From: Spirochaetales bacterium
GTDB lineage: Bacteria; Spirochaetota; Spirochaetia; Treponematales; Treponemataceae
Direction of reading: 5' to 3'
Length of the DNA: 64,000 nucleotides
Assembly (NCBI GenBank): GCA_029098225.1
Contig: JAQXNX010000033.1
Location: 62,001 to 126,000 of the forward strand
A model generated the notes under the pieces. The model was not told where the DNA came from, searched no databases, and worked only from the letters and a program-made list of their open reading frames with translations. The translations under genes were made by a program, and so were the position numbers. Shown here piece by piece: positions 52,619 to 54,633 of this stretch (position 1 is the stretch's first letter; every line of letters starts with the position of its first letter).

Positions 52619-52687
52619 AACGCCCCACTTCATATAAAAAGTGTAGTTATACAATTTTAATCCATAAATGGAGAATAATCAATGGAA

Positions 52688-52844
52688 GCAGCCTAAAATC
52701 GAAGAACCGTTAAAAAGCGAGCTGCGACAGCAGATCGCTTTAGGTTCATCGAAAGAAGGGCTCAAGCTGCGAGACTATGCGAGCAGCCTATAATCGAAGA
52801 ACCGTTAAAAAGCGAGCTGCGACAGCGGGTCGCTTTAGGTTCAT
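52688..52844. repeat. Two 62-bp direct copies (95-bp period) of a hairpin repeat
   Basis: gcagcctAaaatcgaagaaccgttaaaaagcgagctgcgacagcRgRtcgctttaggttcat at 52688-52749 and 52783-52844; each can fold (gaacc...aagcga / tcgctt...ggttc). Confidence 0.85.
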
Positions 52845-53099
52845 AAAAAAAATGCTCGGAGGCAAGATATGCATGCCGATTTATGTTGATCCATTTTCTT
52901 TAAACGTCTTTATCAATAACAATCTCACTCTGCTGAGACCACCAGTCAGCGCCTTCGTTTCCAACACCGCCATTCTCATTTATCCTAGCCACAAGGCTTT
53001 ATTGCAGACAACTTGTGCACTCAAAAATTTTCATTTTTTTTTCATAAATTTTGTCAAAAATGTATATTTAAAGACAATATTATATATAGAGTTTTTTTA

Positions 53100-53518
53100 G
53101 ACCTACATGATATGGCAACAAGGCTGTTTTGTAGGTCAAAATAACAGAAAACCAAATAAACCACAGAGCTGGCAACCTACAAAACAAGCGGGCATTAATG
53201 TCTTGTAGGTTATTATGCCGCTGCCTTGTTGTGTAAGCCGAGGATGCAACCTACAAAGTGTAAAATGAGGCTTTTTTTGTAGGTCGAGAATTCCAAAAGC
53301 AGGCCGCTCACCGAGTTTTGAGACCTACAAAATATGAGCCGAAAGTGTTTTTGTAGGTCGAGATTGCAGAAAATTTACAAGAATCTTGGAGTACTCCCCT
53401 GCAAGCGACCTACAAATCAAGGGAAGTAGCCTGTATTGTAGGTCAACTTTTCGAAAAATGCTCCTGCAAAATGGAGTCTTGACCTACAAGATATTTAAAG
53501 CAAGTAGTTTTGTAGGTC
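53100..53518. repeat. Array of six 38-bp inverted-repeat units (RACCTACAA-N20-TTGTAGGTY), 74-bp period with one 85-bp step
   Basis: Units read directly: 53100-53137, 53174-53211, 53248-53285, 53322-53359, 53407-53444, 53481-53518. Arms are conserved; 20-bp cores and 36-bp (one 47-bp) intervening segments diverge. Confidence 0.93.
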
Positions 53519-53592
53519 GCATGATCTACAAAACTACAAGAATTTGAAACTGATGCCCTGCAGGCTGTCAAAAATCAGAAGGAGAAAACTAC

Positions 53593-54633
53593 ATGAAAGA
53601 AGAACTGTTACCCCCATGTAATCTGGAAGAAGAAATTGAGAAGAGACTTAAAAATTTACAGACAACATTAATGGAAAAAGAAAAGGAAGTTAATAAAAAA
53701 CTTGAAGGGCACCTGCGAATTGCCCAGAGGCATGGCAGAAGTCAATTTTATCATTACACAGAGAGTTCAAATCCAAAAGGCCGCTACATTCCTCTTAAAG
53801 AAAAAGACTTTGCCTACAAACTGGCTCAAAAAAATTATGATACAGAAGTTATAATATTAATTCAAAAAGAAATCGACGCGCTGCAAAATTACCTGAAGCA
53901 GACAAGCGATGGCCGCGCTATTTCAGAACTCTACGATTCTCTCTGCCCGGCCCGCCGCGCTCTCATTACTCCTGTAACTTTCACAGATGAGCAGTACGCG
54001 GCCCGCTGGCAGGAAATCTCCTGGACTGGCCGGCCTTTCTCACAAGAGGCTCCACTTCTCTACACAGCCCGCGGCGAGCGGGTACGCTCCAAGTCTGAAG
54101 TAATAATCGCCGATACACTTTTTCGCCACAAAATTCCTTACCGCTACGAGTATCCGCTCACGCTCCGCCGCAGCGGCACCACAGCAACCCGTGATAATTT
54201 AGAAAAGCGCAATCACCGCATCATCTCTGACTCCGGCATCCACACAAAAGCCATCGGCGGCGGCAACTCCGACACCACAAACTCCGCCACCGGCAACACA
54301 TCCATCTGCAATCACACCACAAGCACCGGCAACACATCCACCTGCAATCACACCACAAGCACCGGCAACACCACCATATCCGGTCACCACACTTCCATTA
54401 CACTTCACCCCGACTTTCTCTGCCTCAACACGCGCACCCGTCAAGAATTCTACTGGGAACATTTTGGACTTATGAACGACCCAACCTACTCAAACAATGC
54501 GGCCGGCAAACTCCGCCTCTACACAGAAAACGGAATTCTCGCCGGCCGCAATCTCATAATTACAATGGAAACTCTGGAAGAACCTCTGTCTACACAAACC
54601 ATTGGAAAACTGATCACAGAGTTTCTAACCTGA
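53593..54633 (+). CDS. PD-(D/E)XK-superfamily-like nuclease of unknown function with tandem-repeat insert
   Basis: ARGERVRSKSEVIIADTLFRHKIPYRYEYPL ... LHPDFLCLNTRTRQEFYWEHFGLMNDPTYSNNAAGKLRLYTENGILAGRNLIITMET, consistent with E / PDF / ExxW catalytic-core spacing; RBS aaggag at about 53580. Confidence 0.7.
   Translation: MKEELLPPCNLEEEIEKRLKNLQTTLMEKEKEVNKKLEGHLRIAQRHGRSQFYHYTESSNPKGRYIPLKEKDFAYKLAQKNYDTEVIILIQKEIDALQNYLKQTSDGRAISELYDSLCPARRALITPVTFTDEQYAARWQEISWTGRPFSQEAPLLYTARGERVRSKSEVIIADTLFRHKIPYRYEYPLTLRRSGTTATRDNLEKRNHRIISDSGIHTKAIGGGNSDTTNSATGNTSICNHTTSTGNTSTCNHTTSTGNTTISGHHTSITLHPDFLCLNTRTRQEFYWEHFGLMNDPTYSNNAAGKLRLYTENGILAGRNLIITMETLEEPLSTQTIGKLITEFLT
54289..54384 (+). repeat. 36-bp in-frame tandem repeat (12 aa, TGNTS[I/T]CNHTTS), about 2.7 copies
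   Basis: accggcaac recurs at 54289, 54325 and 54361; translation TGNTSICNHTTS-TGNTSTCNHTTS-TGNTTISGHHTS. Confidence 0.9.

Follow-up and report, generated by a model that had tools for sequence, protein, structure and literature searches.

An array of inverted-repeat units upstream of a gene for a nuclease-fold protein

The window, that is, the whole stretch of 64,000 nucleotides that was analysed, was scanned with the pattern RACCTACAW-N20-TTGTAGGTY. The scan revealed six exact matches, starting at 53100, 53174, 53248, 53322, 53407 and 53481, and no further match was present elsewhere in the window. Each unit was 38 bp long and the start-to-start steps were 74, 74, 74, 85 and 74 bp, which reproduced the geometry of the initial annotation to the base. 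Alignment of the units likewise agreed with its description of conserved arms and of cores and intervening segments that vary among the six units. The pattern was absent from 100 dinucleotide-preserving shuffles, and no such unit is expected by chance. The array is located between a promoter-like block and a gene for a 346-aa protein, the start of which lies 75 bp downstream of the last unit. The features of the locus are as follows.

53051..53089, + strand: promoter-like block TTGTCA-N16-GACAAT-ATTATATATAG, found by consensus scan directly 5' of unit 1; putative promoter
53100..53137, no strand assigned: unit 1, with arms at 53100-53108 and 53129-53137 and a 20-bp core that is identical in the orthologous loci L048 and L050
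53174..53211, no strand assigned: unit 2, pattern match
53248..53285, no strand assigned: unit 3, pattern match
53322..53359, no strand assigned: unit 4, pattern match
53407..53444, no strand assigned: unit 5, reached by a step of 85 bp (74 bp plus one helical turn) that is kept in L048 and L050
53481..53518, no strand assigned: unit 6, pattern match
53593..54633, + strand: gene of the array-linked 346-aa protein, identified by its open reading frame, homologs with arrays, the AlphaFold2 model and purifying selection
53614..53790, + strand: residues 8-66, a helix and beta-hairpin that covary with the arm sequence; putative reader of the arms
53791..53904, + strand: residues 67-104, a long helix in the AlphaFold2 model, with weaker covariation with the arms
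54073..54630, + strand: residues 161-346, PD-(D/E)XK-like domain with invariant RSKSE, YE, PDF and WEHFGLM, assigned by alignment and PADLOC

Because the promoter-like block precedes unit 1, the whole array would fall within the transcribed leader of the gene. We found a promoter-like block 5' of the first unit at seven further Treponema loci (L048, L050, L052, L057, L067, L069 and L165), where the order of block, array and gene was the same as in the window.

Two other repeats were observed near the array. Directly after unit 6, GATCTACAAAACTAC provides a second pairing partner for the right arm of this unit. The resulting 15-bp stem with a 4-nt loop (53504-53537) is found roughly 55 bp upstream of the start codon and has been preserved for the most part in L048 and L050; it may represent a hairpin of the leader or an additional half-site. 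Further upstream (52682-52852), a repeat beginning with GCAGCCTAAAATCGAAGAACCGTTAAAAAGCGAGCTGCGACAGC was present in two copies that are 89% identical and 95 bp apart, with a related copy in L015 near 1710. It seems to be one of the genome's dispersed repeats, without relation to the array.

Domain structure of the linked protein

The 346-aa protein consists of an N-terminal domain, a long helix and a PD-(D/E)XK-like C-terminal domain. Searches of Pfam, NCBIfam and PHROGs with this protein gave no family match, and no Pfam family, including the Nop domain, matched the window protein or five of its homologs. The C-terminal part matched the C-terminus of the PADLOC entry PDC-S68 with an E-value of 4e-24, a partial match that covers the nuclease domain only, and homologs of the protein significantly matched a PD-(D/E)XK model in PADLOC. 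Members of the PD-(D/E)XK superfamily are characterised by the core residues E...(P)D...(D/E)xK within an alpha/beta fold. In an alignment of 45 relatives, the motifs RSKSE, YE, PDF and WEHFGLM were invariant across two phyla. In particular, E169, D274 and E289 were invariant, while the usual lysine of the ExK motif was absent, with WEHF in its place. Comparison with orthologs revealed that the gene is under purifying selection.

The AlphaFold2 model, which was confident (pLDDT 84.9, pTM 0.72), predicted an N-terminal helix (residues 11-34), a beta-hairpin (40-55) and a long helix (68-103), followed by an alpha/beta domain. Fold matches of this model were weak (MunI, E 0.02; FAN1, E about 1.5), and the N-terminal domain alone had no recognisable structural relative in the fold search. 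A PDB sequence search returned chance-level matches only, among them T7 endonuclease I at E 0.9. In collections of phages, plasmids and viral contigs, the only full-length relative was one weak match, with 27% identity over 85% coverage, to a 4-kb contig of faecal origin that is catalogued as phage.

We also observed an insert of about 60 low-complexity residues (T/S/N/G/H) at approximately positions 198-261 of the window protein (54184-54395). It is absent from the orthologs, is coded by 36-bp tandem repeats and is predicted to be disordered in the AlphaFold2 model. Additionally, the WEH-type nuclease domain was found in plasmid records within AAA-ATPase/RecD-like proteins of Rhizobium, Vibrio, Bartonella and others.

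Linkage between the gene family and inverted-repeat arrays

Of the 98 Treponema genomes sampled, 28 carried the family, some of them in about eight copies, and one scan of the genome collection yielded 80 loci from Treponema, Lachnospiraceae, Peptoniphilaceae and others. An inverted-repeat array was located within 800 bp of 46 of the 76 usable genes, 29 of which had at least three identical 7-mer units; by this exact-repeat criterion, ~40% of the homologs were without an array. Among the flanking pieces, 52 of 149 were array-positive, compared with 0 of 120 control pieces from the same contigs at a distance of 1.8-2.6 kb (hypergeometric p 3e-16). The array was mostly upstream of the gene in Treponema and mostly downstream in Bacillota, and it was sometimes present on both sides, as at L064 and L101. 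The 3-kb flanks of the 76 loci contained no recurrent neighbour gene family and no conserved partner.

The arm sequences varied among loci and included ACCTACAA, TACCTACAGA, TTCCGACAAA, TTCCCATAGGA, TACGGATAAA, TTACATA, TGGGTGTAG and more. Paralogs of one genome carried differing arms; genome G092, for example, contained arrays with ACCTACA, TACCTACAGA, TTACGGCTAAAA and TCATATAATT. Some arrays had clearly been enlarged by tandem duplication (L057, L072 and L119), and the cores were near identical within some other arrays.

Two side observations were made at other loci. A truncated third family gene with an internal stop was present at L016:4664-4930 (G000:C10:345664), and no array was noticed adjoining it. 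Another dispersed element of about 76-110 bp was found at L133:578-687, with many copies of 80-98% identity in each of four Treponema genomes.

Solo arrays without an adjoining family gene

Solo arrays were sought by their arm pattern. The genome of the window contained two further ACCTACAA-type arrays without an adjoining family gene, at C12:75445-75736 (period 64) and C10:40184-40450. A paralog on contig C14 of the same genome has an array with TACGGATAAA arms, and a solo array with these arms was located at C10:47680-47886, where it is flanked by the enolase gene and a divergent gene. The genes adjoining the solo arrays were unrelated and revealed no common theme. Within the 98-genome Treponema sample, clustered ACCTACAA units were found in six genomes, all six of which were among the 28 carriers of the family (p 4e-4). 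The initial annotation had considered that the array might occur only once; the same arms recur in the C12 and C10 arrays and in other Treponema, and at the level of the class, arrays with other arms are present beside dozens of homologous genes.

Helical phasing of the units

The centre-to-centre steps of the units clustered at 51-54, 62-65, 72-75, 82-85, 94-95, 105, 115, 125, 147-149 and 168 bp. A periodogram of the steps revealed a peak at 10.45-10.5 bp with a phase near 0 and an R of 0.73, compared with a null maximum of 0.36 in 5000 jitters. When hand-listed distinct steps were recounted by group, R was 0.89 in Treponema (null maximum 0.43) and 0.63 in Bacillota (null maximum 0.58), the phasing being looser in Bacillota than in Treponema. 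De-duplication of related arrays in these data was only partial. As the steps are multiples of ~10.5 bp, the units lie on one face of B-DNA.

Conservation of arms and spacing

To describe the conservation of the array, we compared the window with the orthologous loci L048 and L050, the latter of which is syntenic with the window locus and has pnp on its left. The arms were changed at 1-2 of 108 positions, whereas 27% of the core positions differed. The intervening segments were 11-15% different and 4-fold degenerate sites 24-32% different, and no indels were present within the array. Across nine ortholog comparisons, 46 cores contained 0 gaps. Solo arrays revealed a similar pattern, with 0-5 arm changes per 72-90 positions where the segments between units differed by 25-57%; in the C12 solo array, the arms differed at 2-5 of 90 positions and the between-segments at 25-57%. 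Nearly fixed arms and gapless cores that drift at the synonymous rate show selection on the arms and on their spacing, and the core sequence is close to neutral.

The core changes between the window and L048 were clumped, with 12, 9 and 5 changes in units 2, 3 and 6 and 0, 3 and 0 changes in units 1, 4 and 5. This clumping perhaps reflects constant-length block replacement by cutting and repair or by conversion.

Covariation of the arms with the N-terminal domain

For the 113 protein pairs (30 proteins) with an identity of 50% or more, the similarity of the arms followed the identity of residues 8-66, with a rho of 0.66, and did not follow that of the nuclease domain, with a rho of 0.02. The partial rho for residues 8-66, given the identity of residues 105-346, was also 0.66 at this cut-off, compared with a permutation maximum of 0.38. 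At 55% identity or more, rho was 0.85 for residues 8-66 and 0.10 for the nuclease domain. Over the tested cut-offs, the partial rho ranged from 0.66 to 0.88 and exceeded all 400 permutations of the arm labels, which correct in part for the non-independence of the protein pairs. Additionally, at one syntenic locus in two species, the arms read TTCCGAC and TTCCGTC, respectively, throughout the array, and a diverged family member was found in the same place. Since the arms covary with residues 8-66 and not with the nuclease domain, this pattern suggests that the N-terminal helix/beta-hairpin domain is probably the part that reads the DNA.

Proposed function of the array

From these sequence comparisons, it is very likely that the array is a cognate DNA-binding platform of the protein encoded by the adjacent downstream gene. 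The initial annotation had proposed a programmable, guide-like or protein-binding array and made no link to this gene. Its protein-binding part is well supported by the 10.5-bp phasing, the constrained arms, the length-fixed neutral cores and the covariation between the arms and the N-terminal domain; the guide-like part did not hold, as described below.

In the arrangement that we propose, each 38-bp unit would be one site with two inverted half-sites, the arms of 9-10 bp, which would be physically bound by two copies of the protein. The N-terminal helix/beta-hairpin domains would contact the arms, and the length of the spacer would matter while its sequence would not. Because the units are spaced by whole helical turns, the bound dimers would lie on one face of the DNA, where they could touch one another and form a cooperative complex. 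Solo arrays with the same half-site would provide further docking places, serving as extra titration or roadblock sites. Since each paralog has its own half-site, several insulated gene-array pairs could coexist in one genome.

The most likely use of the array would be that the protein controls and holds itself. In Treponema, where most arrays are placed after the putative promoter and ahead of the gene, a filled array would block transcription of this gene and would sequester the nuclease-fold protein. We put forward this regulatory or sequestering role of array and protein tentatively. The roadblock model does not explain the downstream position of the array at most Bacillota loci, and pure regulation would leave the nuclease domain unexplained, because its catalytic-type residues are invariant; the domain may be catalytically active. 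The ~40% of homologs for which no array was scored, the unrelated neighbours of the solo arrays, the looser phasing in Bacillota and the lack of a structural relative for the N-terminal domain likewise count against the explanation. Taken as a whole, a cooperative cognate docking array that autoregulates or sequesters its own protein is the best explanation, and we consider it probable.

In the literature searched, in which subscription papers and preprints were largely outside the scope, no described family or system matched the gene-array pairing, and the only inverted-repeat arrays found together with a nuclease were Tn7-like ends. The gene and array probably belong to an undescribed and widespread class in gut and rumen Spirochaetota and Bacillota, in which a standalone nuclease-fold protein is combined with phased arrays of inverted half-sites and with solo arrays. 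Within that reading, the specificity of the N-terminal domain has likely diversified paralog by paralog, giving insulated same-face nucleoprotein assemblies on one chromosome. An orphan repeat pattern would thereby be tied to an orphan protein family by one rule, according to which the N-terminal domain and the arms change together in two phyla, and the dozens of natural protein/half-site pairs are a possible source of a new DNA-recognition code. The arrangement also raises the question of why a cell would hold a nuclease-fold protein along long arrays, always on the same side of the helix, both at the protein's own gene and at a few loci elsewhere.

Alternative explanations

The alternatives were ranked, with a dimeric defence or maintenance nuclease first and a selfish pair of the REPIN type second. 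According to the former, a defence or genome-maintenance nuclease would cut within the core that is flanked by two occupied half-sites; the home array would be a platform for holding or sensing, and the solo arrays would be additional platforms. The PD-(D/E)XK-type residues are invariant across two phyla, the same domain ends both the defence candidate PDC-S68 and plasmid AAA/RecD-like ATPases, and inverted half-sites around a length-fixed, sequence-free spacer with unconserved cores have the geometry of a dimeric nuclease site. However, a nuclease that cut its own array would sever the chromosome, the neighbourhood lacked a conserved partner gene, the PADLOC match is partial and confined to the nuclease domain, and the ExK lysine is replaced in WEHF. 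We regard this explanation as unlikely.

A REPIN/RAYT-like selfish or domesticated pair, in which units recognised by the nuclease are mobilised or multiplied by it and solo arrays are spread copies, is less likely still. It would account for inverted pairs with free cores beside a gene, for a repeat type per paralog and for unlinked copies, and both the clear growth by tandem duplication at L057, L072 and L119 and the several gene copies per genome in some Treponema are in line with it. In contrast, the protein is not recognisably an HUH Y1 transposase; the dispersed copies are few and always form arrays, never single units; and the solo arrays have been retained by vertical descent, their arms conserved. 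A search for empty sites, in which three loci were compared between species, revealed no clean element ends, and boundaries were not readable at these loci because the neighbouring genes change too. Apart from the one weak match given above, the collections of phages, plasmids and viral contigs contained no relative over the full length.

The guide-like part of the initial annotation corresponds to an array of RNA guides or hairpins that resembles CRISPR or TIGR-Tas, with the cores as spacers in processed RNAs. Short stems with variable loops are indeed present beside a nuclease-fold gene and behind a promoter-like block, and the array has an RNA fold z of -7.5; this value is uninformative, since it would arise from any inverted repeat in DNA. 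If an RNA stem were selected, G-U pairs and two-sided changes should be favoured, whereas the arm deviations on the sense strand of the gene comprised 54 G-U, 74 A-C and 132 other mismatches and 12 two-sided changes. There was thus no G-U excess, one-sided changes dominated, and complementarity ended at the arms, which argues against selection for an RNA stem. The cores descend vertically, each in its position, and diverge at the synonymous rate, and other arrays have cores that are nearly the same. Three cores had no match in viral contigs, the whole array had no match in phage and plasmid collections, and Rfam gave only a sub-threshold chance match. Additionally, the window protein and five homologs lack a Nop domain or any other Pfam family, and unit phasing at 10.5 bp is not expected of RNA. 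As RNA pairing is not selected and the cores are inherited rather than acquired, a guide array is not supported; we rejected this candidate as very improbable. A guide-RNA reading of such arrays is a natural mistake, and these tests argue against it.

Tn7-like transposon ends, with the arrays as transposase sites, are a still more doubtful explanation. Inverted binding-site arrays are a hallmark of Tn7-like elements (PMC8649781), and arrays flank the gene on both sides at L064 and L101. However, a conserved tnsB is not apparent, since neither a recurrent neighbour family nor a recurrent DDE transposase was found in the sampled 3-kb flanks; at most loci the array is single-sided, and each unit is itself an inverted pair. 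Finally, a decayed tandem duplication without function can practically be dismissed, because, although tandem duplication clearly built several arrays, the arms are fixed while the cores drift without indels, the units are helically phased, and the arrays are associated with one gene family across two phyla.

Comparison with known systems

We compared the cooperative docking array proposed here with known systems that combine a gene and a repeat array. REPIN/RAYT systems, in which a gene lies beside its own inverted-repeat pairs with a free middle, a repeat class per paralog and unlinked copies (PMC3116915), are the nearest in organisation. Gene-linked repeat pairs, copies elsewhere and a paralog-specific repeat class are shared features. 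In contrast, RAYT is an HUH Y1 transposase, whereas the present protein is PD-(D/E)XK-like without a Pfam match; the units described here are always in arrays, are phased by whole turns and have very few unlinked copies; and their arms are simple half-sites that are not themselves REP palindromes.

In Tn7-like elements, TnsA has a PD-(D/E)XK nuclease fold. The ends of these elements contain arrays of binding sites for the transposase TnsB (PMC8649781). The link between a probable protein-binding repeat array and a PD-(D/E)XK-like protein is similar, whereas the loci described here have no transposase or partner genes, usually have one array, are built of inverted-pair units and revealed no element boundaries. 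In TIGR-Tas systems, an array of short stems adjoins the gene of one effector (PMC12045711), and the present loci likewise have stem arrays beside one effector gene. A TIGR-Tas system is further marked by the Nop domain of its Tas protein and by processing of the array to 36-nt tigRNAs. The present loci differ in the absence of a Nop domain and of any sign of selection for RNA pairing, and their cores are not spacers. Similarly, in contrast to the acquired spacers of CRISPR, the cores are passed on vertically, each in its place, and hardly differ within other arrays; no cas genes were seen by inspection among the open reading frames around the window array, and the 3-kb flanks of the 76 loci had no recurrent family. 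REPIN/RAYT, Tn7 ends and TIGR-Tas each fail a defining feature here.

The C-terminal domains of PDC-S68 and of the WEH-type AAA/RecD-like ATPases are homologous to the nuclease-fold domain of the present family, in which it is instead joined to a small N-terminal domain, the two forming a standalone protein of 250-346 aa with a linked array. In multi-site operators, iterons and phage stoperators, one protein has repeated sites within or near its own gene and at other intergenic places, and helical phasing favours cooperative binding. The same-face spacing and the conserved half-sites matched to a linked protein are found here as well. The protein of such an operator also binds its sites and represses the gene, as the present protein may do. 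The arrays described here differ from such operators in the conserved nuclease-fold domain of their protein, in their inverted pairs with a fixed free spacer and in a specificity that changes paralog by paralog.
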